IMG/VR virus record: IMGVR_UViG_3300037153_000772
Span: 1 to 34,352 of that record
Reading direction: 5' to 3' (one strand)
From: a virus
Length of the DNA stretch: 34,352 nt
Shown: piece by piece, positions 3,697 through 28,006 of the stretch
Numbering within the stretch: position 1 is the first letter of the stretch
Layout: every line of letters begins with the position of its first letter
The notes under the pieces: generated by a model
The model's database searches: none
Told to the model about the DNA's origin: nothing
The model's input: the letters and a program-made list of their open reading frames with translations, nothing else
Made by a program: the position numbers and the translations under genes

Positions 3697-3699
3697 GAC

Positions 3700-6102: not shown

Positions 6103-6314
6103 GGTCTCGACTTGGCGGATTTCTCCGCGGGTTCCGGTTCAGGCTTGGCGGATTTCTCCGCGGGTTCCGGTTCAGGCTTGGCTTCGGGTTGCCCGATCTT
6201 CTTCGGCGCATCCACCGGGCGCATGGTCGCGCCCTCGGGGAGCTCGTCCCCTTTGCGTACTCGGCGCGGAAACCCGCCGATGTCGATCACGCCATCCGTT
6301 TCGGCTCTGGCCAT
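6099..6314 (-). CDS. Small capsid-region protein with PEPEPAEKSA repeats
   Basis: The 71-residue product begins MARAETDGVIDIGGFPRRV, includes KGDELPEGATMRPVDAP, and ends in a repeated tail with two copies of KPEPEPAEKSA. The first half resembles the short proteins often found right after the major capsid protein gene in HK97-type phages (head fibre or decoration candidates). The repeated tail comes from an exact 33-base tandem duplication. Its role is unknown. It follows the capsid gene by 13 bases on the same strand. Confidence 0.62.
   Translation of the reverse strand: MARAETDGVIDIGGFPRRVRKGDELPEGATMRPVDAPKKIGQPEAKPEPEPAEKSAKPEPEPAEKSAKSRP
6111..6176. repeat. 33-base perfect tandem repeat, two copies
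   Basis: Two identical 33-base units lie at 6111-6143 and 6144-6176, followed by the first five bases of a third. They are in frame with the small capsid-region gene and encode an 11-residue Pro/Glu/Lys repeat. The perfect identity points to a recent duplication and probable copy-number variation. Confidence 0.9.
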
Positions 6315-6327
6315 GTCAGGTCTCCGA

Positions 6328-7611
6328 TCACGCCAAAGTCACATTGGCAAATGCGTTTGCTTTATGAACCGCAAGTGCGATTCGTTCCTCAGCAAGAAAC
6401 ACGAAGATGTTGCGAATGAAGAAATCACTGTGCTGGTCGGCGACGAAGATCGTGCCGGCCATGCGGTCGAGAATCGTCGCCTGGCTGCCAGCGCCGACGA
6501 GGGCCGTGCCCGCGGTGACGGCATTCGCCTCAACCACGGTCAAGCCCCAGAGGCGGGCGGGATCGGCCGCGCCGTACGGGCCCAGCCCATAGAACGCGCC
6601 GGTGTCCATCACCGCGCCACTGAACAGGACCCAGTCGGCCGGGTTCAGCGCGACGAAGGTCGCCCGCGTTTTCGAGGCGGCGTAGATCGCGCCTTTGGCC
6701 GCGTTGATCCGGTTGAAGTTCTCGGCGGCGGTGCCAACACCCGGCACCGGATTGGCCGTGAAATAGGTGGCGTCGAGGACCAGGATGCCGGTCTGGTCGA
6801 GGATGCCGCTCATATTGGGCGAGGTGCCGTCGCCGGCCACCACCTGGTCGATCTCTTCTTCGACCAGCCCGTTGAGCAGGTTGCCTTCGAGGAAGGCCCG
6901 CATCTGGCCGTTATCGTCGAGCGATTGCCGCGTGATCGGAATCCAATGGGCAATCGTCACCACCGGCGCGACCACGTTCTCGAAGACTTTGGCGCTTTCG
7001 GGTTTGGCTCCGGTGCTGACCGTGGTCGCCTCGGCCACGGCGGCGGCGTTATTGGTAAAGCTGACTTCCCGCACGTAGTTGATCGCCGATTGATCGGTCG
7101 TGCCAACGTTGAGCACGCTCCGCAGCGGATTCGCCATCAGGGGCGTGCCGCCCGAGATCGCGTCCACCCGTTCGCTGCCGCCGACGCCGTGGATCAAGGC
7201 CCGCTGTTCGGACTCCGTCCGGGTGCGAAAGAAACTGCCGATCGTAAAGGGCGCGCTCTTGCCGCTGGGCCGGGCGCGGTACTCCTTGAGCTCGTCACTC
7301 GCGGCGAAGCGGTCGGAGAGCGGCCGCCGGTCGGGCGGTTTGCCCGAGGCGGGGTCGACATCGGCCTGACCGTTCGCCGGAACGGTCCGTTCGTCGCGGA
7401 TGATCACCGTGTCGGCGATGGCGCGGCGCGTTTCGTCGATGCTGATCTCGCGGGCCAGTTTCGGCCCGACCTCGTTCAGTTCGGCGATGAGCTGATCGAG
7501 TTTGCTGTTGTCCTCGTCGCTGCGTTTGTCTTGCAGAACGAGGGCCTCCACCTGGGTGGAGAGCGCCGCCTGCTGCTCGCGTAACTGCACGAGTGCCGGT
7601 GATGGGTTCAT
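6328..7611 (-). CDS. Major capsid protein (HK97 fold)
   Basis: This 427-residue protein follows the prohead protease with a 4-base overlap. The N-terminal ~100 residues are helical and charged (RSDEDNSKLDQLIAELNEV), matching the delta scaffolding domain that is cut away after assembly. The body has HK97-type features: NPLRSVLNVGTTDQSAINYV, an E-loop-like region with TKSG-type sequence (VSTGAKPESAKVFE), then ITRQSLDD and LVEEEIDQVVAGDGTSPNMSG. The end (LAEERIALAVHKANAFANVTLA) is typical of these proteins. Length, order and motifs agree, so the assignment is strong. Confidence 0.94.
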   Translation of the reverse strand: MNPSPALVQLREQQAALSTQVEALVLQDKRSDEDNSKLDQLIAELNEVGPKLAREISIDETRRAIADTVIIRDERTVPANGQADVDPASGKPPDRRPLSDRFAASDELKEYRARPSGKSAPFTIGSFFRTRTESEQRALIHGVGGSERVDAISGGTPLMANPLRSVLNVGTTDQSAINYVREVSFTNNAAAVAEATTVSTGAKPESAKVFENVVAPVVTIAHWIPITRQSLDDNGQMRAFLEGNLLNGLVEEEIDQVVAGDGTSPNMSGILDQTGILVLDATYFTANPVPGVGTAAENFNRINAAKGAIYAASKTRATFVALNPADWVLFSGAVMDTGAFYGLGPYGAADPARLWGLTVVEANAVTAGTALVGAGSQATILDRMAGTIFVADQHSDFFIRNIFVFLAEERIALAVHKANAFANVTLA

Positions 7612-8423
7612 ACGATGCCTCCTGCGGTGATGACTTGCGATCGAGCGAGGGCCACCAGGCCCAGGATGTGCCGGCGCGCTTCGTCGTCCGCCGGGACCGG
7701 CTCGTGCGTGGCGTGTTCAGCCGGCGCGGCGAGGAGGGCGTAGGCGGCGGCGATCTCCGCGGCAAGGGACCGCTGACGTTCGTCAACGTCACCGGTCTCG
7801 AGGGCAGCGAGGAGGGCGGCGAGGGCGTCATCGTCGAGTTGGGAGCGCACCGCCGTGATCACGGCCTGCTCGTTCGCCGGAAACGTCACGACCGAGCTCT
7901 CCCAGAGGCGGACCTCGGTGATCACCCGGATGTCGGCCTTCGTCGTGTCTTTGTCGAGTTGACTGAGGTCGATCTCGTCCTCGTCGGCGGCACTGCGGTC
8001 CTTGAGCGTGGTGAAGCCGAAACTCAGACCGAGCGGCACACCGGCGCGCAGCCGTTTGAGCGTGGTCGAGCCGTCGGCGCCATCGTCGACCAGGGCGACC
8101 TCGACGGCGAGCCCGGTGCGGTCCTCGCGGATCGCCGTATGGCGTCCGATCGGAATCGCCGGGTCATGGTTCCACAGCACGGGCAGGCGTTCGCCACGGT
8201 CCTTCAGGCTCTTCTTGAAACACCCACGGGCGAAGCAGGAGAGATAGGCGTCGGCCGCCATGAACGTACTGGCGTAACCGGTGAAGCCGTCGGCCGTCGG
8301 CTCGGTCAGGGCCGTGCGGTATTCGAGGGCAGCACTGGGCGGCCGCCGGGCGAACCACGCCGGGAGCAGATGAGGTTCGGTGACGGGGAGTTCGGGCGCT
8401 GCGTCGACCGCAAAATCGGCCAT
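7608..8423 (-). CDS. Prohead maturation protease (S78, HK97-like)
   Basis: The 271-residue product contains EYRTALTEPTADGFTGYAS, then PVLWNHDPAIPIGR with the likely catalytic His86, and PLGLSFGFTT with the likely catalytic Ser134. These are the conserved blocks of the U35/S78 prohead proteases, which cut the delta domain of the capsid protein during maturation. The C-terminal ~60 residues (from about 215) are charged and helical and may act as a scaffold or tether. Its stop overlaps the capsid start (7608-7611). An extended -10 element lies about 80 bases upstream. Confidence 0.92.
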   Translation of the reverse strand: MADFAVDAAPELPVTEPHLLPAWFARRPPSAALEYRTALTEPTADGFTGYASTFMAADAYLSCFARGCFKKSLKDRGERLPVLWNHDPAIPIGRHTAIREDRTGLAVEVALVDDGADGSTTLKRLRAGVPLGLSFGFTTLKDRSAADEDEIDLSQLDKDTTKADIRVITEVRLWESSVVTFPANEQAVITAVRSQLDDDALAALLAALETGDVDERQRSLAAEIAAAYALLAAPAEHATHEPVPADDEARRHILGLVALARSQVITAGGIV

Positions 8424-8500
8424 GATCGACCTCGCGGCGACGTTGCGCCGTCTGTCTCATGGCCCGCATCGGGACGCTGCTCCTGTGTTCGTTCAGGTGG

Positions 8501-8509
8501 ATTCTAGCA
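8501..8509 (-). promoter_or_regulatory. Candidate late promoter upstream of the protease-capsid genes
   Basis: On the minus strand this reads TGCTAGAAT, an extended -10 element (TGn plus TAGAAT). It lies in the gap between the Com-like gene and the protease gene. The same nonamer, with one variable base, occurs at 12547-12555 and 12402-12410, both upstream of the terminase genes. No good -35 is visible, as often with extended -10 promoters. Confidence 0.5.
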
Positions 8510-8514
8510 CAGCC

Positions 8515-8697
8515 TCATTTCGGGACGGGGACAACGAACGTGATCCGGGTCCGGCAGCGTTTACAGAACGCCTCGACTTCGGTCCCCGGCGGCAATTGCG
8601 CCCGGATCAGCAGACGCCCGCAGTAGGGACAGAGATGGACGACCAGTGGCGGTGGACGCGACGGTTGCGGTGGCCGGCGGCCCGGTTGCACGCTCAT
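8515..8697 (-). CDS. Com-like small zinc-binding protein
   Basis: A 60-residue protein (start at ATG 8697, just after the portal stop) has HLCPYCGRLLIRAQLPPG followed by FCKRCRTRITFV, i.e. two C-x2-C pairs 20-odd residues apart. This matches the zinc ribbon of Mu Com, which activates translation of mom, and of Com-like proteins found near head genes in other phages. The Pro/Arg-rich N-terminus (residues 1-25) may bind RNA. An upstream in-frame start at 8718 lies inside the portal gene. Function is inferred by similarity; no mom-like target gene is seen in the window. Confidence 0.72.
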   Translation of the reverse strand: MSVQPGRRPPQPSRPPPLVVHLCPYCGRLLIRAQLPPGTEVEAFCKRCRTRITFVVPVPK

Positions 8698-8698
8698 C

Positions 8699-10774
8699 TC
8701 ACTCCGCGCCGAAATCACTCGTCAGCACGGGCGAGACGGCCAATATGCACGAGGGGTGCGTCCCCATCACATGCGTGTCCACCTGAGACAGCGGCACGAT
8801 CATGCCGTTCCGTTGGGCGCAGGTCAGCCCGTCACCGTCGCCGCCATAGCCGCCGTGTTCGGCGTTGTCATGGAGCTGGGCGCGATCCACCACGCCGCTC
8901 TCGCGGTACGCCAGCGTCGAGGCGGTGTTGAATGACACTTGGCTCTCAGAACGCGCCACCACCATCGCTCTCGCTTCGCCGAAGTCGTCGAACTGGCTGC
9001 TGATGCGGTTCGACAATTCGGCCAACGTCACCCCTTCGCTCAAACTATCGGTGATCAGGGTGGCCATCGCCTGCCGCGTCGTCTCGTTAATTCCTGACGC
9101 CCGGGTGAGGAGTTGCTCCATCGTCCGCCCGAGCTGCGGATTGGCGAGATCGAAACTGATCGCAATGTCCAACTGCGCACTGGCCGCCGCGAACGCGCCC
9201 TCGGCCGCCTGGATGGCAAGTTTCTTCAACTCCTCGGCGAGCAGTCGGTCCTCTTCGGCCCAGTCAATCTCCTCCAGCGCCCGCGTCTCGAACGTCGTTC
9301 CGTCCTGCCGGAATCCGGTCTGCTCCATCAGCCGTTGGCCTTGTGACCGCCAGAAGCGGCCCAGGACGGGCGCAAAGCGTTCGGCTAACCGCAGCATCGT
9401 TGTCCGGTTCGTCGCGGCGTGGGTCGCCCTGATTTCCTGCGCAGCGGCCATCCCGGTGGTCAAGGCCGGCGTCACCTCGCGCCATTCGCCCGCAACCAGG
9501 CGGCTCCGCGTCGGCAGCAGCTCGTCGCCGGCTGGAACTTCGATCTGGGCAATACTGAGGATCCTGACGTCACCGCCGGTCAATGGTGGCAGGCCGACCA
9601 ACGCCCGGCGCTCGTTGATCGTGGCGAACTCGGCCACGCCGGGCATGGTGGCATGGGCCCAGTCGACGGAATCGTCGTCGGCCAGGGCGGGGACACGGCT
9701 CGTGTCGAACTCCAGGCTAATCGCCGGATTCGTCTCGAACTCCGGCAGCAGACTGCGCGTCAGGGCGCCGTCGAGTCGGGCCCAGAGCGGCGTAATCGTG
9801 TCCTCGTAGAAACTGCGCCGGGCTTCCTCGTACTTGCTCCAGGGCGAGTTCTCCAAGCCGACCAGGGTGCCGAGCATGACCGGCGGCACGCGGAAGGCGG
9901 TCGCGATCTGCGTGCTGCTCAGCGCCCGCAGATCTTTGTACGCCATCTCGTTCAGGTCGAAGCCGAGGCGCTTCACGTCGATGATCGCCTGCATCACGAT
10001 TGGCACCCACTGCTGCCCACTGAACTGCATGAACTTCTCGCGCAGGACGTCGGCCTCGGCCTGATCGAGTTCCGCCCCCTCGGCCGGGACGAGCCCGATC
10101 TGGGGGATGGCGCCGGAGTCGAAGAACGATTTCACAAAGCCCGTGGCGTCGTTCTCGATCGCGATCTCGCGGCGGGCGGCGGCAATCGGACTGATGCCGG
10201 CGGCGCCGAGCAGCGGCCCACTCTGAAACGTCCAGGCGAGGACGTCTTCGGCCAGGAGGTGGTAAGTGACGCTGTCGCCCGGCACGCGGTACTCCCAGTC
10301 GACGCGACCGTCGCGGCGGGCGATTGGTTGCAGCCAGTCGGAACGGAGCGGGTAGAGCCCGGTGGGGCGGCGGGTGCCATCCCGCGTGATTTCGTTGACA
10401 CAGAAGCCGGCGACGGCGGCGATCTTGACGTTGGCATTGATCCACTCGGCCTCGCTCATGCTCGGATTCGGCTGGCGCATCAGTTGCCGGAGTGGGTGAT
10501 CGGGCAGCTCAATTCCGTCCTGGCGTTCGTCGACAACGGCGACGCGGGCGGTGGCGGCGGCGTCGGCCAACCAGTTGATGCAGGCGAAAACGACGACCAC
10601 TTGCTCATAGGCGGTCAGGGCGGTGTGCACATTCGCCTCGGGCCAGACGGGGCGGCCGTAGCGGTAGAGCGCCACGGTCGGCAGGGCGCGGCGCTGGGGT
10701 GGGCTGAGTTGACTGCTGGTCATGGCTGGGTACGGGGCGCGCAAGGCATCGGCGATCCGGGTGCGTAAGGTCAT
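8699..10774 (-). CDS. Portal protein fused to a MuF/SPP1 gp7-like head morphogenesis domain
   Basis: The gene encodes 691 residues from ATG 10774, which has an AAGGAG site 7 bases upstream; the longer frame upstream is not protein-like. Residues ~1-400 are a HK97-type portal: DHPLRQLMRQPNP, LAWTFQSGPLLGAAGISPI, and FRVPPVMLGTLVGLENSPWS, which builds the dodecameric DNA channel. The C-terminal ~250 residues resemble MuF/SPP1 gp7 proteins: long helices, TTRQAMATLITDSLSEG, RAMVVARSESQVSFNTAS, and a Cys/His-containing end (GLTCAQRNGMIVPL, MGTHPSC). Usually these are separate neighbours; here they form one chain. The family regions are recognised from motifs, not a search. Confidence 0.88.
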   Translation of the reverse strand: MTLRTRIADALRAPYPAMTSSQLSPPQRRALPTVALYRYGRPVWPEANVHTALTAYEQVVVVFACINWLADAAATARVAVVDERQDGIELPDHPLRQLMRQPNPSMSEAEWINANVKIAAVAGFCVNEITRDGTRRPTGLYPLRSDWLQPIARRDGRVDWEYRVPGDSVTYHLLAEDVLAWTFQSGPLLGAAGISPIAAARREIAIENDATGFVKSFFDSGAIPQIGLVPAEGAELDQAEADVLREKFMQFSGQQWVPIVMQAIIDVKRLGFDLNEMAYKDLRALSSTQIATAFRVPPVMLGTLVGLENSPWSKYEEARRSFYEDTITPLWARLDGALTRSLLPEFETNPAISLEFDTSRVPALADDDSVDWAHATMPGVAEFATINERRALVGLPPLTGGDVRILSIAQIEVPAGDELLPTRSRLVAGEWREVTPALTTGMAAAQEIRATHAATNRTTMLRLAERFAPVLGRFWRSQGQRLMEQTGFRQDGTTFETRALEEIDWAEEDRLLAEELKKLAIQAAEGAFAAASAQLDIAISFDLANPQLGRTMEQLLTRASGINETTRQAMATLITDSLSEGVTLAELSNRISSQFDDFGEARAMVVARSESQVSFNTASTLAYRESGVVDRAQLHDNAEHGGYGGDGDGLTCAQRNGMIVPLSQVDTHVMGTHPSCILAVSPVLTSDFGAE

Positions 10775-10785
10775 GGGCAACTCCT

Positions 10786-11970
10786 TCAGACGAAGCGGAC
10801 CCGCTTGCGTGGTCCCATCACGGCGAGACAGACATAGCGAAAACTGTCCATGCAATGATCGAACTCCTTCACCGGGACATCGCGCTCGGCGTGGCGTTCG
10901 GGATAGTGATAGCTCTCCATCTCGGCGATGAAATTGATGCACGACGCGTCAACCGTGAAGTGCGGCAGGACGGCGCTCACCCGTTGGATGCCGGTGATGA
11001 TGTCGTTATTGGCTTTCCGCACCTGGAGCCCAGCGCGTTGCAGATCGAGGATGAGGCCGGTCGACGAGGGATCGACCACGACCAGACTGGCGCCCGAGCG
11101 CTCGTACTCACGGACGGTGGCCGCGACGATCTCGCTGGCGCTCATTCCGGTGCGATAGAGCTCCCGTTCGAGATGGACCCGCTCACCCGAGGAGCGGACG
11201 GTGAGACAGGCGGTCGGGTTCCGCGTCCCGGTGTCGAGCCCAAGGGCGGTCGCCCAGCCGGTGCAGTCGACCGTCTGGATGTGCTGCTCGCGGTGGAAGC
11301 CGGGATAGACGAGTCCCTCGAACGCCACGAACTGGGCGTCGATCTCCTGAGCGTAGGTTTGCCCGGTGTAGCCAAGATCACGGACGAAGGTGGCGGCGTC
11401 GACGAAGGGATTACCGAGGGTGCCGGCGCGGTAGAGGGCATGCTGGGGATCGGGGTGCTGCACCCATTCGCTCCAGACGAGGCGGCGGCCGCGCGGCGTG
11501 GTCGTGGCGAAGAGCTGCGGGTTCGGACCTTCACGCACGGCGCCTTTGAGCGCGGTCCAGGTGCTCTGCCGGCTGACGTATTCAAGTTCATCGACCCAGG
11601 CCCAGGCGAAACCGGGACCGCGGATTCGGCTCTCGGTTTCCAGCGTGGCGAAGACGACTTCGGCGCCGGTCCGGGGGATGGTGAGGGAGCCGAGGCTCTT
11701 GTGTTGCTCGTAGGGCAGGCCGAGGGCGTCGAGGCGGTCGAGAAAGGTCCGTTTGGCGGCGTGTTCGAGCATGGGGAAGTTGGGGGCGGCGACCAGCCCT
11801 AAGCCCGGCTGGGTGCATTTCAGGGCGGCTTTGACGGCGCCGGCGTGACTCTTGCCGGCGAAGCGGCCGCCGAGGAAAACGACGTACTTGTGGTCGTCGT
11901 GGACGAAATCGTCCTGCACGTCATAGAGGGCGATTTCGACGCGGGTACCCGTTTCGGGTGTGGCGACCAT
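10786..11970 (-). CDS. Terminase large subunit
   Basis: The 394-residue ATPase/nuclease packages DNA into the prohead. Walker A is GGRFAGKS (34-41), Walker B is AWAWVDELE with D127/E128, and the coupling motif is TTTPRGR (157-163). The C-terminal RNase H-like nuclease has ALGLDTGTRN (D246), VVVDPSSTG (D300) and EFDHCMDSFRYV (D371, D375), giving the acidic cluster. The ATG at 11970 overlaps the stop of the small subunit (TAATG). The protein is slightly short for the family but contains all expected motifs. Confidence 0.95.
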   Translation of the reverse strand: MVATPETGTRVEIALYDVQDDFVHDDHKYVVFLGGRFAGKSHAGAVKAALKCTQPGLGLVAAPNFPMLEHAAKRTFLDRLDALGLPYEQHKSLGSLTIPRTGAEVVFATLETESRIRGPGFAWAWVDELEYVSRQSTWTALKGAVREGPNPQLFATTTPRGRRLVWSEWVQHPDPQHALYRAGTLGNPFVDAATFVRDLGYTGQTYAQEIDAQFVAFEGLVYPGFHREQHIQTVDCTGWATALGLDTGTRNPTACLTVRSSGERVHLERELYRTGMSASEIVAATVREYERSGASLVVVDPSSTGLILDLQRAGLQVRKANNDIITGIQRVSAVLPHFTVDASCINFIAEMESYHYPERHAERDVPVKEFDHCMDSFRYVCLAVMGPRKRVRFV

Positions 11971-12347
11971 TAGGCGTCACCGTCCGGGCTGGGCTCGGCT
12001 TGGTTGACCCGTTTGAGGATGACGGTCAATGGATGGTCGAGATCGCCGACATGCTCGGTCTGCAATCGCTCGCGGTACTTCTCCGGGCGACGGGCTTTGA
12101 GCAAGAGGACCATCAGGGAGGTGTTGCCGTCGGTGGCCTGGCGGGTGGCGACATCTTCGAGGTAATCGGTGCCCATTTCGATCGCGTCATCACAGAGGGC
12201 GGCGAAGTCCTCGTCCTCGGTGCGCCAGGTGTAGTAGGTCTGCCGGCTGATCTTGGCGACTTTGCAGGCGGCGTGAATGCTCCAGCCGCGGGCCAGCTTG
12301 GCGACGATCCGTTCCTCATGCTCCGGGGTCCTGACAGTCGGGGTCAT
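11970..12347 (-). CDS. Terminase small subunit
   Basis: A 125-residue protein has an N-terminal helix-turn-helix (IHAACKVAKISRQTYYTW, residues ~23-41) followed by EDEDFAALCDDAIEMGTDYLEDV, the arrangement typical of small terminase subunits that recognise phage DNA and load the large subunit. It lies first in the late transcription unit and directly precedes the large subunit with overlapping stop and start. The C-terminal LKARRPEKYRERLQTEHVG also fits this family. Confidence 0.88.
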   Translation of the reverse strand: MTPTVRTPEHEERIVAKLARGWSIHAACKVAKISRQTYYTWRTEDEDFAALCDDAIEMGTDYLEDVATRQATDGNTSLMVLLLKARRPEKYRERLQTEHVGDLDHPLTVILKRVNQAEPSPDGDA

Positions 12348-12401
12348 GTGTCCAAATGGTCAAGATGACGGCGCGAACGAATTCCCGTACGTTGTGCCCG
12401 T

Positions 12402-14128: not shown

Positions 14129-14151
14129 GGTCGTTGCCAGAGGAGCCAAAC
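14108..14151 (+). promoter_or_regulatory. Extended -10 promoter and leader of the HNH-AP2 gene
   Basis: TGCTATACT (14108-14116) is an extended -10. The following bases TATACTTCCGTCA match the leader of the HNH gene at 24096 (TATAATTCCGTCA) in 12 of 13 positions. A GAGGAG ribosome site precedes the ATG at 14152. No strong leader hairpin is seen here, unlike the other three cassettes. Confidence 0.6.
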
Positions 14152-14853
14152 ATGGGCCCGTTTAGCCAGCAATTTCTCGATCGGTTTTGGTCCAAGGTCG
14201 ATCAGTCCGGTGAGTGCTGGATGTGGCTTGGAGCGACACGCGGCAAACCAAATCGCCGCTACGGTGTCTTTACTTTCCGCGGCGAGGACATGGCGGCCCA
14301 TCGCATCGCGTTTGCCATCGCCCAGACATCGCCCCCTGATCACCTGGTCGTCTGCCATCGCTGCGACAACCCGCTCTGCGTGAGGCCAGATCATCTTTTT
14401 CTGGGCACCGTTGCCGACAATAATCACGACCGCGATCGGAAGGGAAGACAGCGCACGCTCCGTGGTTCCGCCAATGGACGGTCGGTGCTGTTCGAGGATC
14501 AAGTGGTTTCGATGCGTGAACGATTCGCGGGCGGCATGATCACGCAGACACAGCTGGCGAAAGAGTTTGGGGTCGCGCGCAGCTTGGTGGGGATGATCGT
14601 GCGTGGTGAAGTTTGGCAACATGCGCCCGGACCAAGAACCGAGCGGCGCATGCCACGAAGCAATTCTGGGTACCGCGGCGTTTCGTATATGTCCGATTCT
14701 GGCTCGTACCAGATCTACATCACCTTTCAGGGCAAGCGCTATGCGTTGGGGGAAACACGCGACCCCGTCACCGGCGCGCGCCGCTATGACGCCAAAGCAC
14801 GCGAACTCTACGGAGACGCGGCTGCTCCTCACTTGAACTTTCCCGACGAATAG
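14152..14853 (+). CDS. HNH endonuclease with C-terminal AP2 domain
   Basis: The 233-residue product starts at ATG 14152 behind GAGGAG. Residues ~7-100 form an HNH_3-type nuclease: FWSKVDQSGECWMWLGATR, AAHRIAFAIAQ, VVCHRCDNPLCVRPDHLF (first His, Asn, second His) and FLGTVADNNHDRDRKGR. A linker with a helix-turn-helix-like segment (TQLAKEFGVARSLVGMIVRG) follows. Residues ~178-230 are an AP2 DNA-binding domain (GYRGVSY, YQIYITFQGKRYALGETRD, ARRYDAKARELYG, LNFP). HNH-AP2 proteins are mobile homing-type endonucleases. It is inserted between integrase and repressor region on the plus strand and has its own promoter. Confidence 0.92.
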   Translation: MGPFSQQFLDRFWSKVDQSGECWMWLGATRGKPNRRYGVFTFRGEDMAAHRIAFAIAQTSPPDHLVVCHRCDNPLCVRPDHLFLGTVADNNHDRDRKGRQRTLRGSANGRSVLFEDQVVSMRERFAGGMITQTQLAKEFGVARSLVGMIVRGEVWQHAPGPRTERRMPRSNSGYRGVSYMSDSGSYQIYITFQGKRYALGETRDPVTGARRYDAKARELYGDAAAPHLNFPDE

Positions 14854-20246: not shown

Positions 20247-20282
20247 CTCGTGTGGTGGCGGTGTATGTCGCCGTGCCACGAG
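20247..20282 (+). other. Stem-loop before the second XRE gene
   Basis: CTCGTG-(t)-G at 20247-20254 can pair with CCACGAG at 20276-20282, with an inner GGCG/CGCC stem. It lies just upstream of the ribosome site of the gene at 20298. It may regulate translation or be a protein site. It lacks a T run. Confidence 0.35.
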
Positions 20283-20297
20283 TTGAAAGGATCACCA

Positions 20298-20690
20298 ATG
20301 GCCCTCGGCCCTACCCTCGACACCGCCTTGGCGCGAACGATGCGCCTGGGCGAACTCCTCGCCTATTACCGCACCACCGCCGGCTATTCGCAGAACGCCC
20401 TCGCCCGCCGCGCCGCGATCGATCACTCGTTGCTGCACCGCTACGAACTGGGGGAACGCCGGCCCAGCCGCGGCCGCACGCTGGCCCTGGCCCGCGCCCT
20501 CGGCCTGTCACAAGCCGAAACCGACGAGCTCTTGCAGGCCGCCGGACTGGCGCCGGAAAGTGAGCAGCTGCGGCAGTTGATTGTCAGTCTCGCGAGGTGC
20601 GCCGATCCCGTGCGGCTGCGCAAAGGCCAACGGTTGCTCGAGACGGCGCTGGAGACGCTCACCCCGCCGGTGGTGCAGTTCGATGACTAG
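20298..20690 (+). CDS. Second XRE-family HTH regulator
   Basis: The 130-residue protein starts at ATG 20298, 6 bases after AAAGGA. It has a well-formed HTH: GELLAYYRTTAGYSQNALA, RRAAIDHSLLHRYELGERRPS (residues ~15-55), then a helical C-terminus with SQAETDELLQAAGLAP and LRQLIVSLARCADPV. It resembles Cro/cI-type DNA-binding proteins and Streptomyces-type XRE regulators. As it is within the early replication operon, it probably controls early expression or replication rather than being the main repressor. Its stop overlaps the next gene. Confidence 0.8.
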   Translation: MALGPTLDTALARTMRLGELLAYYRTTAGYSQNALARRAAIDHSLLHRYELGERRPSRGRTLALARALGLSQAETDELLQAAGLAPESEQLRQLIVSLARCADPVRLRKGQRLLETALETLTPPVVQFDD

Positions 20691-22083
20691 CGGACGTGAC
20701 GGCATGAGCTATGACGCCTTTCGCGCGACAAAGGGGCGATCCGTCGATGCGGTCGGGATCGAGGTGGCGCCCGATGCGATCCATCCCAGTCTGCACGGCT
20801 TTCAACGTGATCTCGTGCGCTGGGCGCTGCGCAAAGGGCGCGCCGCGATCTTCTCGACGACCGGCACGGGCAAAACGCGGATGCAGCTGGAATGGGCGCG
20901 GCTGAGTGGCGAGCGGGTGTTAATCGTGGCCCCGCTGGCCGTAGCTCAGCAGACGGTGCGAGAGGCGGGAGCGCTCGGCATTGAACTGACCTATGCCCGC
21001 TCCCAGGCCGATGCGGCGGACCTGACGATCACCAATTACGAAATGGTGCATCACTTCGACGCTGCGCAGTTTGGCGCGGTCGTGCTCGATGAATCGTCGA
21101 TCCTCAAGGCCATGGACGGCAAGCTGCGCACGGCCCTGATCCGGCAGTTTGCGGCCACGCCCTACCGTCTCTGCTGTACCGCCACGCCGGCGCCGAACGA
21201 TCTCGACGAACTCGGCAATCACGCGGAATTCTTGGGCATCCTCACGCTGGCCGAGATGCGGGCGACGTTCTTTGTCAACGATCAGGGGACGAAGGAGCGG
21301 ATTGGCTGGCGCCTCAAAGGTCACGCCCGTGAGCCCTTCTATCGCTGGCTGGCGTCGTGGGGTATGACGCTGACCAGACCGTCTGATCTCGGCTATCCCA
21401 ACGACGGCTATGATCTGCCGCCGTTGACGATAGTGCCCATGATTCTGGCCACCGACTACCGCCCGCCGGGACAGCTCTTTGCCACCAGTCTCCACGGCAT
21501 CACCGATCGCGCCGCCGTGCGCAAACAGACCATTGCCGAACGAGTCACCGCCACCGCCGCCCTCGTGGCCCAGGAACCAGACGAGCCCTGGTTGCTCTGG
21601 CCCGGGCTGAACGAGGAGGCCGACCGCCTGACGGCAGCGATTCCGGGCGCGGTCAACGTTCAGGGCAGCATGACGCCCGAGGCGAAAGCAGATGCGCTCC
21701 TCGCCTTCGCCGACGGTCACATCCCTGTCCTCGTCACGAAACCGTCGATCGCGGCCTTTGGCCTCAACCTGCAACACTGCGCCCGCATGGCCTTCGTCGG
21801 GCTGTCGGATAGCTACGAGCAGTATTTCCAAGCGATCCGCCGCTGCTGGCGCTACGGTCAAACCCGTGAAGTCAAGTGCTTCATTGTCCTGACTGAACCG
21901 GAAGAAGTGATCTACGAGAACGTCTTACGCAAGGAACGGGAAGCGGCGACGACTGCCCGCGAACTGGTCAAGCACGTCGCTGAATACGAGAAAGCGCAAC
22001 TCGGACAGGCACGACACCGCGTCACTTATGACCCATCCGTTCCCATGACTCTGCCGAACTGGCTGAAAGGATTCGCCGCGTGA
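20683..22083 (+). CDS. SF2 (DEAD/SNF2-like) helicase
   Basis: A 466-residue product starts at ATG 20683 inside the end of the XRE gene; ATG 20704 is an alternative. Motif I is FSTTGTGKTRM (57-67), motif Ia VLIVAPLAVAQQTV, motif II VVLDESS (D136/E137), motif III CCTATPAPNDLDEL, and the second RecA lobe has SYEQYFQAIRRCWRYGQTRE (motif VI) and LVTKPSIAAFGLN. This matches phage SNF2-like helicases often found beside a DNA methyltransferase and a VRR-NUC nuclease. A role in DNA replication or repair is likely, without proof. Confidence 0.88.
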   Translation: MTSGRDGMSYDAFRATKGRSVDAVGIEVAPDAIHPSLHGFQRDLVRWALRKGRAAIFSTTGTGKTRMQLEWARLSGERVLIVAPLAVAQQTVREAGALGIELTYARSQADAADLTITNYEMVHHFDAAQFGAVVLDESSILKAMDGKLRTALIRQFAATPYRLCCTATPAPNDLDELGNHAEFLGILTLAEMRATFFVNDQGTKERIGWRLKGHAREPFYRWLASWGMTLTRPSDLGYPNDGYDLPPLTIVPMILATDYRPPGQLFATSLHGITDRAAVRKQTIAERVTATAALVAQEPDEPWLLWPGLNEEADRLTAAIPGAVNVQGSMTPEAKADALLAFADGHIPVLVTKPSIAAFGLNLQHCARMAFVGLSDSYEQYFQAIRRCWRYGQTREVKCFIVLTEPEEVIYENVLRKEREAATTARELVKHVAEYEKAQLGQARHRVTYDPSVPMTLPNWLKGFAA

Positions 22084-22961
22084 ACGTGATCGATCAAGTC
22101 ATCACCGACAAATACGCCCTCTACAACGGCGACAGCGCCGACGTGCTCGCGGGCTTGCCCGATCACAGTGTCGACTTCTCCGTGTTCAGCCCGCCGTTCA
22201 TGAGCCTGTTCACCTATTCGGCGAGCGAACGTGACCTTGGCAATAGCGGATCGCCGGCAGAGTTCTGGCAGCATTTCAGTTTTATCTCGGAACAACTCGT
22301 CCGGGTGATGAAGCCAGGACGCATTGTGGCGATTCACGTCGCACAAGTACCGAGCACCAAGGCCACACATGGCGTGACGGCCCTCTTTGACTTCCGCGGT
22401 GACACCATCCGGCACTTTCAGCAAGCCGGTATGCATTATCACGGCGAAGTAACGATCGATAAGGACCCTCAAGCCCAAGCGATCAGGACGAAAAGCAAAG
22501 CCCTGCTCTTTGTCCAGATGGAACGGGATTCGTCCTGGTCACGCCCTGCCCTTGCTGATTACATCGTCCTGATGCGGGCGCCGGGAGAGAACGCCATCGA
22601 CATTCATCCTGACATTAGTCGCAATGAATGGATCGAATGGGCTCGCCCGATCTGGTACGGCATTCGCGAAACCGACACGTTGCAAGTCGCGGAAGCGCGG
22701 GACGAGCAGGACGAGCGCCATATCGCGCCATTGCAACTCGGCACGATCGAGCGCTGCATTCGCCTCTGGAGCAATCCCGGTGAGACGGTCTTGAGTCCGT
22801 TCGCCGGCATCGGCTCCGAGGTCTACATGGCGGTCAAGCTCGGGCGGCGCGGGATCGGCATTGAGCTCAAACCGAGCTACTTCCAATGCGCGGTTACGAA
22901 TCTGGAGCGGGTCACGGCGCGGGTGGAATTGCCGCTCTTCGCCGAGCAGACAACCCCATGA
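22080..22961 (+). CDS. DNA methyltransferase (SPPF-type, N4-cytosine or N6-adenine)
   Basis: The GTG at 22080 overlaps the helicase stop (GTGA). The 293-residue product has the catalytic motif SVFSPPF (34-40), a central GRIVAIHVAQVPSTKAT block and the AdoMet site near the C-terminus (LSPFAGIGSEVYMAVKLGRR, GIGIELKPSYF). The order catalytic motif then AdoMet motif is the beta class. SPP motifs suggest N4-cytosine but N6-adenine is not excluded. Without a restriction partner it is a solitary methyltransferase, likely protecting phage DNA. Confidence 0.88.
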   Translation: MNVIDQVITDKYALYNGDSADVLAGLPDHSVDFSVFSPPFMSLFTYSASERDLGNSGSPAEFWQHFSFISEQLVRVMKPGRIVAIHVAQVPSTKATHGVTALFDFRGDTIRHFQQAGMHYHGEVTIDKDPQAQAIRTKSKALLFVQMERDSSWSRPALADYIVLMRAPGENAIDIHPDISRNEWIEWARPIWYGIRETDTLQVAEARDEQDERHIAPLQLGTIERCIRLWSNPGETVLSPFAGIGSEVYMAVKLGRRGIGIELKPSYFQCAVTNLERVTARVELPLFAEQTTP

Positions 22962-23356
22962 GCATGAGCGCCGCCGAGTTCCAGGCCACCATCCGGGAAG
23001 CCGATTTTACCGAGCACGTCATCGCCGAGGCCGAGGCCGCCGGCTGGCTCGTCTATCACATCCCGGACTGGATGTACCGCACGGCGATGGCGAAATGGCG
23101 GGATGACGGTCACCGCCGCGGGCGGTGGTGGCCGCCCCGTGGGTTTCCCGACCTCATCTTGGTCAGAGCCCATCCGCCGCCGCCGGAGCTCCTCTTCGTC
23201 GAGCTCAAAAGCCGCTACGGCAAGCAATCGGTGGACCAGATCGCCTGGCGTGATGCGCTGGTGGCCTGTGGGCAAACGGTCGAACTGTGGCGGCCCAAGG
23301 ATTGGCATTGGATCGTGGCGCGGTTAGCGCCGAAACCGAAGGAGGGACGGGAATGA
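22958..23356 (+). CDS. VRR-NUC domain nuclease
   Basis: The 132-residue product begins at ATG 22958, overlapping the methyltransferase stop. It has a helix FTEHVIAEAEAAGWLVYHIP, an Arg/Trp patch, then the PD-(D/E)XK core: GFPDLILVR (Asp), LLFVELKSRYGKQS (ExK) and QIAWRDALVACGQTVELWRP. This is a single-domain VRR-NUC enzyme, which are small structure-specific nucleases; in phages they often accompany helicases and annealases. It could process ends for the Bet protein. Confidence 0.9.
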   Translation: MSMSAAEFQATIREADFTEHVIAEAEAAGWLVYHIPDWMYRTAMAKWRDDGHRRGRWWPPRGFPDLILVRAHPPPPELLFVELKSRYGKQSVDQIAWRDALVACGQTVELWRPKDWHWIVARLAPKPKEGRE

Positions 23357-24000
23357 TCCGCATCATCATCGTGGGCGTGCTCATCGCCGTGGCGGCGGCG
23401 GCGGTGCCGGTGGAAAAGGCGAGTGCGCATCGTGGCACCTATCGTGTCGCCGCCGGATCGTTAGGTCTGAATATCAGAACGGGCCCCGGCGGCGACTTCA
23501 GACGGCTGTATACGATGCCAAATGGCACCTTAGTCAAGGCACGGGGGCATCGCGGCTCGTGGCTGTATGGCACCGATCTCTCGACCGGGACGACCGGTTG
23601 GATGTGGCTCGCCTACATGCAGCCGGTGACGGGCGGCGGGGGATCGGGTGGGGGGACACCGTCTCTCACGCTGTGCTGGGACTCGTCATTCGGGGTTGTG
23701 TACTGCGCCCCCTATTGGATTGCCGAGACGATTTACAACGCCGCGATCCGCTGGGGGGTGCCGTACTGGGCACTTATGGGAATTTCCTCGTGCGAGAGTG
23801 GCTACGACCCTTATGTGGTGAATTACGCCGGCGGTGCCTACGATCCGCCGAGTGGCATTTTCCAGATACGGCCCTCCACGATGGCGTGGATTTATGGTGG
23901 TTCGGTCTTCAGCGTGTATGACAGCGCCAACGCCGCTGGCAAGCTGCTGGCATACAATTATTCGTACATGTTCGATTGCGCATGGCGCATCGGATATTAG
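23353..24000 (+). CDS. Exported SH3b-lytic transglycosylase-like protein
   Basis: The 215-residue product starts at ATG 23353, overlapping the VRR-NUC stop. Residues 1-25 are a signal peptide (MIRIIIVGVLIAVAAAAV, cleavage after ASA). Residues ~29-92 form an SH3b domain (RVAAGSLGLNIRTGPGG, WMWLAYMQP). After a Gly-rich linker, residues ~120-205 resemble Slt/goose-lysozyme folds: WALMGISSCESGYDPYV with the likely catalytic Glu149, SGIFQIRPSTMAWI, and AGKLLAYNYSYM. It should cleave or bind peptidoglycan outside the membrane. Its place in the early operon rather than the lysis region is odd. Confidence 0.85.
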   Translation: MIRIIIVGVLIAVAAAAVPVEKASAHRGTYRVAAGSLGLNIRTGPGGDFRRLYTMPNGTLVKARGHRGSWLYGTDLSTGTTGWMWLAYMQPVTGGGGSGGGTPSLTLCWDSSFGVVYCAPYWIAETIYNAAIRWGVPYWALMGISSCESGYDPYVVNYAGGAYDPPSGIFQIRPSTMAWIYGGSVFSVYDSANAAGKLLAYNYSYMFDCAWRIGY

Positions 24001-24007
24001 CCGTGAA

Positions 24008-24095
24008 TGGTATAATTCCGTCACAACATAAGGTGGCTGAGGCGGTGTTGATCGCACCCCTCAGCCTGTCACCGCGATTCACTGGAGGAATCACG
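24008..24095 (+). promoter_or_regulatory. Promoter and hairpin leader of the zinc-ribbon HNH gene
   Basis: TGGTATAAT (24008-24016) is a perfect extended -10. The leader folds as GGCTGAGG (24035-24042) with CCTCAGCC (24059-24066), with an inner GGTG/CACC stem and a TTGATCG loop. A GGAGG site lies 7 bases before ATG 24096. This gives the gene its own expression within the early operon. Confidence 0.68.
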
Positions 24096-24884
24096 ATGCC
24101 CAAGAATCCTACCATCCCCCGAACCTGCCAGAACTGCGGCACCACCTTCTTGGCCAGAGATGACCACGTTGCGCGTGGTGGCGGGAAATTTTGTAGTAAG
24201 CGTTGCAGTGACAAAGGTCGCGACTTCTCAAGTCGCAGGCGTCCCATTCCCCGAATCTGCGAGGAATGCGGGGCGGCATTTACCGTGGTGCCAAAGACCG
24301 TGAAGCGCGGCGGCGGTCGCTATTGCAGCAACAAGTGCAAGTTTGCGAGCAAGCAAGACCGCGTACCACGGACGTGTCTCATCTGTGGAGCGGCATTTGA
24401 AGTACGACCGTCTGTTGTGGCACGGGGAAGTGGCAAATGCTGTTCTCGTGCTTGTCGGTGGGCGCTGCGTCATCAGACTGCCTCCGGCCCCACGATGGTC
24501 ACGCGCATGTGTGAAGGCTGCGGCAAGTCGTACGAGACCACGAAGCACTGCGCCGATCGGGGTGAGCGCAGTTTCTGCTCCAATGAATGCCACTACGCAT
24601 GGAAGCGATCCTATTTCGCGGAGACGCGGCCAAGCACCTCCCGCCGAGTTGGCTGGACTCGAACCCGCCGCCGTGTCTGGGAACGCGATCAGGGTATCTG
24701 TCATGTCTGTGGAGTGTATGTCGAGTTCGGCCCCGACTATCACTGCGGTCACATGGTTGATCGCATTTTTGGCGGCTCCGATGACATGACGAACTGCGTG
24801 GTGCAATGCCGACAGTGCAATTTACGCAAGCCCAAAAAACACCACACCCGCGAGGAGTATGAGACGTGGCGGCTGGACCGCTGA
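24096..24884 (+). CDS. HNH endonuclease with four zinc-ribbon repeats
   Basis: The 262-residue protein has four tandem units of about 38-45 residues, each of the C-x2-C ... C-x3-C form: RTCQNCGTTF/FCSKRC, RICEECGAAF/YCSNKC, RTCLICGAAF/CCSRAC, RMCEGCGKSY/FCSNEC. The HNH core follows (~195-262): VWERDQGICHVCGVYV, YHCGHMVDRIFGG, MTNCVVQCRQCNLRKPKKHH. The repeated ribbons probably act as a modular DNA-reading array, and the HNH as the cutter, as in homing-type endonucleases. It sits as a cassette between the transglycosylase and three small genes of the early operon. Confidence 0.9.
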   Translation: MPKNPTIPRTCQNCGTTFLARDDHVARGGGKFCSKRCSDKGRDFSSRRRPIPRICEECGAAFTVVPKTVKRGGGRYCSNKCKFASKQDRVPRTCLICGAAFEVRPSVVARGSGKCCSRACRWALRHQTASGPTMVTRMCEGCGKSYETTKHCADRGERSFCSNECHYAWKRSYFAETRPSTSRRVGWTRTRRRVWERDQGICHVCGVYVEFGPDYHCGHMVDRIFGGSDDMTNCVVQCRQCNLRKPKKHHTREEYETWRLDR

Positions 24885-25370: not shown

Positions 25371-25493
25371 TTAGGGTCGCCAGCGGCCCAGCACCCAGGC
25401 CAGGATGTAGAGCGCCCCACAGACGATAAAGACGATCAGGGCGACGGTGAACAGGGTGTCGTCGGTGATGGAAATATCGGCGAACGTGCGCAT
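25371..25493 (-). CDS. Small membrane protein at the end of the late operon
   Basis: ATG 25493, with GGGAG 9 bases upstream, starts a 40-residue ORF: MRTFADISITDDTLFTVALI, then a transmembrane segment (VFIVCGALYILAWVL) and a basic end GRWRP. It follows the holin-type genes on the minus strand and may be a lysis accessory protein. Its ribosome site overlaps the end of the holin-like remnant. Confidence 0.58.
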   Translation of the reverse strand: MRTFADISITDDTLFTVALIVFIVCGALYILAWVLGRWRP

Positions 25494-25499
25494 GGCGCG

Positions 25500-25559
25500 T
25501 CACTCCCGCCGGCGCGATTGCCGGCCATCGCGGTAGAGGGCTAGGGAGAAGTTGATTGG
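25500..25559 (-). pseudogene. C-terminal remnant of a second holin-like gene
   Basis: The minus strand encodes INFSLALYRDGRQSRRRE then TGA. This matches the holin end [18 protein letters not shown]: Asn-Phe, Leu, Leu and Arg-Asp-Gly are identical and most others are similar. It has no plausible start of its own, since upstream (on the minus strand) is the antisense of the HNH gene, whose -10 starts 1 base away at 25561. It looks like the 3' end of a related holin gene cut off by the cassette. Confidence 0.6.
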
Positions 25560-25625
25560 GTATAATGAGTCCCTGGTCGTTTGTGCCGACCAGGGACTCC
25601 GCATCCAGTGATTGGAGCACTGAAA
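25558..25625 (+). promoter_or_regulatory. Promoter and strong hairpin leader of HNH gene 1
   Basis: TATAAT is at 25561-25566. Directly after it, GAGTCCCTGGTCG (25567-25579) pairs perfectly with CGACCAGGGACTC (25587-25599) around a 7-base loop, a 13-base stem at the very start of the mRNA. GGAG is 8 bases before ATG 25626. The hairpin may stabilise the mRNA or block entry from longer transcripts. Confidence 0.7.
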
Positions 25626-26084
25626 ATGCCCCGAAAGCGTAACCTTATTCCCTTCATTTGTCCCCAGTGTGGCAACCACTTCACCGTCCACGCCTCGCAG
25701 GTGAAGCATCGTGCGGCGCCACCGTGTTGCTCTCTTTCCTGCTCTTCTCGCTTCCATTACCGTCAAGAAGTCGTACCGTGGCAAGAACGGTTCTTGGCGA
25801 AAGTTGACTGCAGTGGTGGACCCGATGCTTGCTGGCCGTGGCAGGGAGCGAGAGCGCGTCATGGGTATGGGAAGTTTAATACTGGAAATGGAATAATGAC
25901 CGCTCATCGCCTCGCCTTTGCCTTGGCGTTTGGGCATCTTCCTGCTGACCTGTGCGTGTGCCATCACTGTGACAACCCGACCTGTTGCAATCCGAACCAT
26001 CTTTTTCTCGGCACCCAGGCTGAGAACATGCACGACATGCTCCAGAAGGGCAGACACCGAACCTCAACGAGCAGGGGTACCTAG
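25626..26084 (+). CDS. HNH endonuclease (flanking the holin genes, left side)
   Basis: A 152-residue HNH_3 enzyme. Residues ~10-40 form a zinc ribbon ([21 protein letters not shown]); ~50-143 have [62 protein letters not shown] and [15 protein letters not shown], with the HNH residues in HHCDNP and NPNHLF. It is on the plus strand inside the minus-strand lysis region, with its own promoter. Its TAG overlaps the stop of the convergent holin by 3 bases. Related to the N-terminal domain of the HNH-AP2 protein. Confidence 0.92.
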
Positions 26085-26413
26085 TTGAACGGCGGGGGCG
26101 CGGGCGGATCATCGCGCGGCGTCCGCTGTCCGTCGCGCCATAGGCCGAGGGCGAAGTTTAGCATGACCACGGCGAGCAAACTGCGTAACCCCGCCCAACA
26201 ATAGACGCGAGCGTGGCTGCCGGCGGTGGCCTCAAAGAGCCACTCGATGCTATACCCCACCCCCGTCACGGCGAGTAAGAGCATCGCCGCCACCCGCGTC
26301 CGCCGGCCAGTCGGGCGATCGAGCCCGAAGCTGACATAGAACGTCACCAGGGCGATGATGGAGGCCACCCCGAGGAAGGCCGCGCCGAAGGTGGCGACGT
26401 CACCGGCGTCCAC
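26081..26413 (-). CDS. Holin-like membrane protein, three spans
   Basis: GTG 26413, preceded by GAGGAG at 10 bases, starts a 110-residue protein. Three transmembrane segments are visible: [20 protein letters not shown] (~9-28), [19 protein letters not shown] (~42-60) and [20 protein letters not shown] (~72-91). The tail is charged and Pro-rich. Size, spans and proximity to the amidase suggest a class I-type holin. It overlaps the 49-residue gene by 14 bases. The end [11 protein letters not shown] is echoed in the remnant at 25500-25559. Confidence 0.7.
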
Positions 26414-26549
26414 GCAGCACCCGCTCCTCGACCCGGTTACGCCAGCGTTGACAGTCCTCGAGCTCGCGCACGAGATAGCGCAGCACCGCGAAATTGAAGA
26501 CGAGGAGGACGGCCAGCGCGCCGCCGTTGATCAGGTCGCTCAAACTCAT
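26400..26549 (-). CDS. Small membrane protein paired with the holin
   Basis: ATG 26549 (AAGGA 8 bases upstream) starts a 49-residue ORF: MSLSDLINGGALAVLLVFNF, one transmembrane segment, then a charged helix [20 protein letters not shown]. This is the look of a small holin/antiholin or spanin-like partner. It overlaps the holin gene. Its start resembles the first 16 residues encoded at 27130-27068, on the far side of an HNH gene. Confidence 0.65.
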   Translation of the reverse strand: MSLSDLINGGALAVLLVFNFAVLRYLVRELEDCQRWRNRVEERVLRGRR

Positions 26550-26561
26550 GAGCGTGTTCCT

Positions 26562-26641
26562 TGGTAAAATGGCAGCGAAAGGCCGGGCAGCGGTTGCACA
26601 CTCCCGGCTTGGTCACACCCCGACCTAGGACGGAGGTCAGC
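26562..26641 (+). promoter_or_regulatory. Promoter and hairpin leader of HNH gene 2
   Basis: TGGTAAAAT (26562-26570) is an extended -10. GCCGGG (26582-26587) pairs with CCCGGC (26603-26608), with AA/TT extension. GGAGG lies 5 bases before ATG 26642. The promoter overlaps the upstream region of the small membrane gene on the other strand. Confidence 0.6.
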
Positions 26642-27067
26642 ATGCCACGCCACGAGTTTAGACCATCCGTTGACTATACGATTGAAGATCGTGGGTTTGA
26701 AACGCCCTGCTGGATCTGGCAGGGAGCCAAGAATCAGGACGGGTACGGCAACGTGTATTCCCAGGGGAAGACGCGCCGGGCCCATCGTTATGCCTACGAG
26801 CGACGCCATCGCCCGATCCCTCTTGGACAGGAGCTTGATCACCAGTGTCGCCAGCGGGATTGCGTCAATCCCGATCACCTGGAGCCGGTGACTCACCGCG
26901 AGAACACTCTGCGCGGGACATCCCCTCGTATCCTGGCGTACCACGCCAACACCTGTTCGAATGGGCACCCGCTCTCGGGAGCGAACCTGATTCGGAATAG
27001 CAATGGAAGTCGACGATGTCGCGCCTGTCATAACGCCCGGCGCCGGAAACCAGCGAATCCCCAGTAG
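26642..27067 (+). CDS. HNH endonuclease (flanking the holin genes, right side)
   Basis: A 141-residue protein from ATG 26642. It has CWIWQGAKNQDGYGNVYSQG, AHRYAYERRHRPIP and LDHQCRQRDCVNPDHLEPVT (HNH His67, Asn77, His79), then a second zinc-binding site with CSNGHPLSG and CRACHNARRRKPAN. It resembles the HNH homing family with a C-terminal zinc finger. It is on the plus strand within the lysis genes and ends exactly where the remnant at 27068-27130 starts. It is distinct in sequence from HNH gene 1. Confidence 0.9.
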   Translation: MPRHEFRPSVDYTIEDRGFETPCWIWQGAKNQDGYGNVYSQGKTRRAHRYAYERRHRPIPLGQELDHQCRQRDCVNPDHLEPVTHRENTLRGTSPRILAYHANTCSNGHPLSGANLIRNSNGSRRCRACHNARRRKPANPQ

Positions 27068-27130
27068 GCCGTTCATTACGCGGAGATTCAGGCTCAATTC
27101 ATTGGCTCCGATCAGCTCCGCCAGGGTCAT
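27068..27130 (-). pseudogene. N-terminal remnant of a holin-type gene
   Basis: Directly after the amidase stop, an ATG at 27130 opens MTLAELIGANELSLNLRVMN, then the frame runs antisense into the HNH gene. It resembles MSLSDLINGGALAVLLVFNF of the small membrane gene at 26549: M, L, LI and L are identical and T/S, A/S, E/D are conservative. It looks like the start of the earlier resident gene, broken by the HNH cassette. The match is short. Confidence 0.48.
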
Positions 27131-28006
27131 TTACTTGACCTTGGTCACAATGCCGACCGTGCCGTTCTTGTCTTTGGCGATGACCAGGCCATTGTCGAAC
27201 TGATAGAGCGTGTAGCCGTCGTGCTTGTCATTCCACAGCTCCCCGCCAACGGGCGCGCCCCAACTCCCGGTCGCCTCGCCGTATTGCCGCCACAAGGCGC
27301 CGACTGGGCCGGACGACGCATCGTCCCAGATCAGATTTGGGTCAAGCACATAGGTCGACTTTGGCAGATTCGCCAACGCATCATCCTCCTCCGCCGGGCC
27401 CACATCCGTCCCAGCCGTCTCCAGCCAGCGATTGACGCGGGCCACGATCGGATCGAAATAGACGCCGGGACAATTGGCGCGGGTGCAGGAATTGATCCAG
27501 CCGTGGCGCAGGATGCCGTAGGTCGAATCGAGGATCGCCGGGTAGCGCATGATCCAGTCCTCGACCTGCCACAGGATCGCATCCATCTGCGGCTTCGGTT
27601 TCGTCTCCTGGTAGTAGCCTTCGGCCTCGATCGTCAAACTCCAGCAGTTCGCGTTTCCGCCCTTCGCCAGAATCTCCGCCGCCTCATGCGTCGGCTCGCA
27701 GACATCGCCGTTCGTCCAGGGACCATGCTCCTCGGGCACGATCCGCAAGATTGAGCCATCCTTCTGGATCATGACCGTGGAGCTGGCGTCGACGTCCGCC
27801 GCCGACCAGTAGGCGAGCGAGGACTTCGTCGTCCCCTCTTGCACGTGCAGGACCACAAACAGCGGCTCGGCCCCGTTGCGATTATTGAACCGGCTGTGAA
27901 TGATCTCGTTCGCCTGCTGCTTCGTCAGTCCGAAGCGGGCGTAGTCGCGTTCGAGCGCATAGATCGTTGGCTGCGGGACATCCGGCGTCGTGGGAATGGC
28001 ACCCAT
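27131..28006 (-). CDS. Endolysin: N-acetylmuramoyl-L-alanine amidase with LGFP-like repeat
   Basis: The 291-residue product has an Amidase_2/PGRP fold: FVVLHVQEGTTKSSLAYW with His54, TVMIQKDGSILRIVPEEHGP, SLTIEAEGYYQ, and GILRHGWINSCTRANCPG with His168 and Cys179, giving the His/His/Cys zinc site. It cuts the amide between muramic acid and peptide. The C-terminal ~70 residues have VGALWRQYGEATGSWGAP and GYTLYQFDNGLVIAKD, similar to LGFP repeats that bind cell wall. Its ATG overlaps the upstream TAA. There is no signal peptide, so a holin is needed. Confidence 0.9.
   Translation of the reverse strand: MGAIPTTPDVPQPTIYALERDYARFGLTKQQANEIIHSRFNNRNGAEPLFVVLHVQEGTTKSSLAYWSAADVDASSTVMIQKDGSILRIVPEEHGPWTNGDVCEPTHEAAEILAKGGNANCWSLTIEAEGYYQETKPKPQMDAILWQVEDWIMRYPAILDSTYGILRHGWINSCTRANCPGVYFDPIVARVNRWLETAGTDVGPAEEDDALANLPKSTYVLDPNLIWDDASSGPVGALWRQYGEATGSWGAPVGGELWNDKHDGYTLYQFDNGLVIAKDKNGTVGIVTKVK

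Follow-up and report, generated by a model that had tools for sequence, protein, structure and literature searches.

How a pair of lysis genes came to lie between two endonuclease genes, with what look like spare ends of the same pair left outside them, is the question raised by one locus in a 34,352-base uncultured IMG/VR virus record (hereafter the window, meaning the whole stretch that was analysed). Phage terminase, portal and major head genes were present in the window. The minus-strand lysis block consisted of an amidase, two small genes designated A' and B' and the gene of a 40-aa membrane protein, and was interrupted by two plus-strand HNH_3 genes, with HNH2 placed between the amidase and A' and HNH1 between B' and the small membrane-protein gene (Table 1). 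A first-pass annotation had described two plus-strand HNH genes enclosing a minus-strand holin pair, and this layout was borne out as all of the open reading frames were recovered and both endonuclease genes belonged to HNH_3. The explanation that we prefer, with confidence slightly above even, is that free-standing homing genes, each with a replacement gene end, invaded the holin pair and displaced its native ends.

Table 1. Features of the interrupted lysis locus in the window and of the comparable locus in Geobacillus phage PK5.1
Feature	Coordinates	Strand	Evidence
40-aa one-TM protein, last lysis-block gene	25371..25493	-	55% identity to same-place gene in G002
Orphan end (INFSLALYRDGRQSRRRE, then stop), displaced end of native putative holin B	25500..25556	-	best 18-mer match to B' end
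Perfect 13-bp inverted repeat, 7-nt loop, between HNH1 and stub	25567..25599	+	z -5.5 vs shuffles
HNH1, free-standing HNH_3 homing endonuclease gene, N-terminal zinc ribbon, antisense to lysis genes	25626..26084	+	PF13392 E 1.4e-12; phrog_1872 E 4.1e-32
B', intact 110-aa protein, three TM segments, putative holin	26081..26413	-	ORF, hydrophobic segments
A', intact 49-aa small membrane protein, one TM, putative holin or antiholin	26400..26549	-	aligns with A of the relatives
HNH2, free-standing HNH_3 homing endonuclease gene, antisense to lysis genes	26642..27067	+	PF13392 E 1.7e-9; phrog_826 E 8.6e-43
Orphan start (MTLAELIGA), probable displaced start of native holin A	27104..27130	-	position after amidase stop
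Amidase_2 endolysin, first lysis-block gene	27131..28006	-	Pfam PF01510 E 1.2e-12
PK5.1: displaced endolysin start (MVRIVLDAGHGG), HNH gp20, second divergent start	3021-3720 of segment OP341628 13000-24000		

Two relatives (G001 and G002) were identified in IMG/VR by a portal search, their portals being 58-59% identical to that of the window. The comparison with relatives lacking the HNH genes, which the first-pass annotation had proposed, gave an uninterrupted order of endolysin, A, B and small membrane protein in both, and neither HNH genes nor orphan stubs were present at either lysis locus. The start codon of A overlapped the endolysin stop in both relatives (TAATG, TAGTG). No closer relatives were found among the viral contigs queried with holin B', the amidase, the portal, the small membrane protein and the amidase C-terminus or among the genomes searched with portal and amidase alignments; all of these searches returned only G001, G002 and one distant portal match. 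A tblastn search with the amidase and B' against phage records gave no match. The C-terminal region of the amidase, about 110 aa, was 44% identical to the endolysin of G002 (L008 11399-12382) while the catalytic parts of the two endolysins had no similarity, so that the endolysin is a mosaic as well. In the window the replication-type genes (20250-24000) were on the strand opposite the head (6300-12350) and lysis (25371-28006) genes, and in G002 genes of all three kinds were on one strand, indicating an inversion between the relatives.

The small membrane proteins adjoin the endolysin in the window, with the same gene order in both relatives, and contain one (A') and three (B') hydrophobic segments. 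No significant match to a curated holin family was obtained for A' or B' in Pfam, PHROG or a further family search, and their designation as holin-like, taken from size, membrane segments and place alone, is putative. A' aligned with its counterpart A in each relative (36-39%) across the border that the first-pass annotation had supposed, and it is therefore an intact gene. B' had no detectable relation to B of either relative, and homologues beyond these two were not detected among viral contigs or, by tblastn, among phage records. The stop codon of B' overlapped that of HNH1 (CTAG). An antisense frame running from the orphan ATG ended in a TGA that overlapped the ATG of A' (ATGA, 26546-26549), which may allow translational coupling or may be a chance occurrence.

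Both HNH1 and HNH2 scored beyond the curated cut-off of PF13392 and also matched PHROG HNH endonucleases. Bracketing A' and B', the two genes have their own starts and stops, are antisense to their neighbours and do not lie in an intron or intein, and no intron or other structured RNA family was identified at the locus in Rfam. Both would encode active homing enzymes. GC3 was 0.60 in HNH1 and 0.65 in HNH2 relative to 0.82 in A' and 0.85 in B', the latter two resembling the structural genes (0.81-0.86). Since their GC3 is below that of A', B' and the late genes, the HNH genes look like recent arrivals that came later than the holins. A second carrier of the HNH2-A'-B'-HNH1 segment was not found, and no relative had HNH genes at this locus, so that the donor, the native state and the number of events are approached indirectly and not by direct observation.

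Other HNH genes were considered in the same way. Homologues of HNH2 and HNH1 that were examined elsewhere were located between genes, which in the case of HNH2 were unrelated ones, and no evident duplication of gene ends accompanied them. A crude screen of the surroundings of 13 HNH genes for gene ends present twice yielded nothing clear, although it picked up the repeat in the Geobacillus phage described below. A third HNH gene in the window (14131-14853) was 51% identical to HNH1 over 96 aa, had extra C-terminal domains and had no clear duplicated gene end in its flanks. A fourth (23976-24884) had several zinc-ribbon-like repeats before the nuclease domain, where HNH1 has one similar ribbon. 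The inverted repeat just upstream of HNH1 was located beside a TATAAT box, was not terminator-like and was unique among the loci compared. Long antisense frames joining the stubs to the HNH genes were considered and rejected as meaningful, being expected by chance from codon usage (P about 0.5 each).

The orphan end between HNH1 and the small membrane-protein gene stops 6 nt before the latter, and its resemblance to the end of B', which had been proposed from the first-pass annotation, held up in each comparison. Among 152,291 stop-free 18-mers from three genomes it matched the B' end better than any other except B' itself, with a score of 48 against 39 for the next, the reverse search agreed, and tblastn recovered the likeness within the window at E 0.002. 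These results confirm the orphan end, at the level of sequence, as a genuine displaced end of holin B. The two DNA ends were 61% identical over 54 nt, and the 21 differences fell at codon positions 1, 2 and 3 in the numbers 4, 6 and 11. When either copy was mutated neutrally by an equal number of changes, the amino-acid score was kept in just 0.1-0.4% of simulations (P about 0.001-0.004), a test that covers a small sample of 18 codons. Both the stub and the B' end seem to have evolved within working proteins, and this protein-level conservation is more in keeping with two related holin genes than with a local duplication followed by decay. Having diverged under coding selection, the stub would derive from a separately evolved holin gene. 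A GGAG within the orphan end is likely to serve the next gene as its ribosome-binding site, and the stub may persist by carrying this site.

On the other side of the pair, the orphan ATG directly follows the amidase stop (TAAATG), which is where holin A starts in both relatives. The first-pass annotation had likened this orphan to the start of A', and the likeness stood by position at the syntenic A start while the similarity itself was slight. The peptide score against the A' start was 18, a value reached by 9 of 5777 start-codon peptides including the query (about 1 in 600), no similarity to the DNA of A' was above chance, and no match to the A profile was obtained. The earlier version of the orphan start, MTLAELIGANELSLNLRVMN, extends to about 27071. 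The holin-like or late-gene-like part covers about the first nine codons only, and the AT-richer remainder may belong to the flank of HNH2. The orphan start is thus a probable displaced start of holin A, mainly by position.

A parallel was present in Geobacillus phage vB_GthS_PK5.1 (OP341628), for which an HNH gene between holin and endolysin has been reported; the available part of that report (PMC10459684) gives the position of the HNH gene only and does not mention a displaced endolysin start. The 37 nt directly after the holin stop of PK5.1 were identical to the endolysin start of its relative PK3.6. This native start was followed by the HNH gene (gp20) and then by a second, divergent endolysin start, and the endolysin body was essentially identical to that of PK3.6 from about 120 nt onward. 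Judged by these identities, the body and the stranded start of the PK5.1 endolysin are native and only the HNH-adjacent start is foreign. The new start has an in-frame TAG in the record, where an internal TTG is annotated as the beginning of the endolysin. The anatomy of PK5.1 is that deduced for HNH2 and, mirrored, for HNH1, with an HNH gene at a lysis gene, a native start displaced after the upstream stop and a divergent second start joined to the body. Unlike the locus in the window, PK5.1 has one HNH gene, in sense orientation and in the endolysin start, and its close relatives reveal which end is native.

With PK5.1 as a guide, the locus can be read as follows. The ancestral order of amidase, holin A, holin B and small membrane protein, as seen in both relatives, would have been invaded by two free-standing HNH homing endonuclease genes. 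HNH1 would have broken holin B near its 3' end, a step for which the indications are strong, and HNH2 would, more tentatively, probably have broken holin A near its 5' end. On the model of PK5.1 and of the fungal cases below, repair would have copied each endonuclease gene and the holin end next to it out of a related donor, so that a foreign end made the broken gene whole and the native end was stranded beyond the endonuclease gene. This outcome would be expected if homology within the target gene guided repair on one side of the break and imprecise joining closed the other, bringing the donor end in. The lysis pair would have stayed complete after both invasions. End replacement is supported by the uninterrupted syntenic locus of the two relatives, the best match of the holin B stub and its divergence under coding selection, the holin A stub that abuts the amidase stop, the distinct composition of the HNH genes, the lack of an intron or other RNA family and the anatomy of PK5.1. 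Counting against it are the weak sequence match of the holin A stub, the lack of either HNH gene at this locus in the relatives, the absence of a detectable B' homologue and the position of other HNH2 and HNH1 relatives between genes.

The same two junctions are predicted if an HNH2-A'-B'-HNH1 segment from one donor replaced the middle of the resident pair in one event and left its ends, and essential genes bracketed by HEGs have been described as HEG islands (PMC10448857). The composition of A' and B', however, is that of the resident late genes and unlike that of the HNH genes (a related donor would match too), A' aligns with its counterparts across the supposed border, and in PK5.1 the gene body is resident and the foreign part is the HNH-adjacent end only. 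The arrival of the holin pair as an HNH-bounded unit, as the first-pass annotation had read it, was not borne out by these comparisons and appears rather unlikely. Replacement of the gene ends is favoured over a swap of the whole segment on account of the composition and the PK5.1 case. The suggestion that homing enzymes moved a lysis module is supported as far as the reshaping of the lysis locus is concerned, and movement of the module as a unit is unproven because the junctions follow equally from either model and the HNH genes were not present in any relative. It is also unlikely, to a slightly greater degree, that HNH1 alone displaced a gene end and that HNH2 was inserted between the amidase and A', leaving the orphan start as a chance ATG. 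This would fit an orphan start with a modest peptide score and no DNA or profile similarity, and homologues of HNH2 elsewhere are located between genes, but the orphan ATG stands right against the amidase stop, the very place at which holin A begins in both relatives.

A tandem duplication that was then invaded had also been offered as an origin, and if the extra copies of the holin pair decayed to stubs it would likewise leave partial copies outside both HNH genes. It is disfavoured because the holin B stub diverged under protein-level selection, its conservation exceeding that expected of neutral decay and its differences being mostly at third positions; extra deletions would also be required, and this origin is very improbable. 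Slightly less credit still can be given to a metagenome assembly chimera of two strains, an origin that a single uncultured record brings to mind, as it requires two misjoins within 1.6 kb and the repeated ends, about 60% identical, are too dissimilar to confuse an assembler. HNH genes are often located in introns, and splicing by a group I intron or another element could be imagined to restore the holins from the stubs. With no intron in Rfam, with A' and B' each an entire frame from its own start to its own stop and with the HNH genes antisense to the holins, the chance of this is smaller still.

Displacement of a gene end by an endonuclease gene has precedents. In fungal mitochondria, mobile ORFs replace the 3' ends of genes, as in Allomyces atp6 and in Glomus atp6, atp9, cox2 and nad3 (PMC3630166). 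There, as proposed for the window, a foreign gene end arrives with the endonuclease gene and pushes the native one aside, and the second copy of a gene end that lies beyond the endonuclease gene in such cases corresponds here to the holin B stub. The fungal elements encode LAGLIDADG or GIY-YIG enzymes and affect carboxy-terminal ends in organelles, unlike the HNH enzymes of this phage, where a gene start may be affected in addition to an end. HEG islands share the bracketing of essential genes by HEGs but are regions, given in the abstract of their description as over 10 kb, with high nucleotide identity between phages (PMC10448857); the segment here is 1.5 kb, has no second carrier found and is accompanied by stubs. 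Free-standing enzymes of the T4 type (mob, seg) cleave alleles that lack the HEG, and the ensuing repair transfers the gene together with its flanks by co-conversion (PMC2988022), which resembles the present case of free-standing HNH genes near or in essential genes with a proposed co-conversion of flanks. Where insertions of this type fall within genes, as in Aeh1 nrdA, the product is divided into two polypeptides, whereas here the gene is whole again and a surplus end remains. In ShiLan an HNH gene was inserted in a phage gene, a methylase, and as here no splicing element was found (PMC11855218); that insertion is in-frame and the host gene reads through, whereas the HNH genes of the window are antisense and outside intact genes.

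The anatomy is related to that of the fungal mitochondrial mobile ORFs and HEG islands, which were already known, and its occurrence at phage holin ends is a variant. Free-standing homing endonucleases are usually viewed as lying between genes or as splitting them. PK5.1 makes end swapping readable in cultured phages with close relatives, and because gene ends that are duplicated, divergent and placed to either side of an endonuclease gene form a searchable signature, its frequency in phages is measurable. The wider proposal, that phage lysis genes are repeatedly reshaped by HNH homing genes carrying foreign ends and that two such events left this pair chimeric at both ends, is put forward tentatively, as a possibility that we hold with less than even confidence. 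Swapping of gene ends with the gene kept whole would explain how essential genes can be invaded without killing the phage, and it would create chimeric lysis proteins within single genes.
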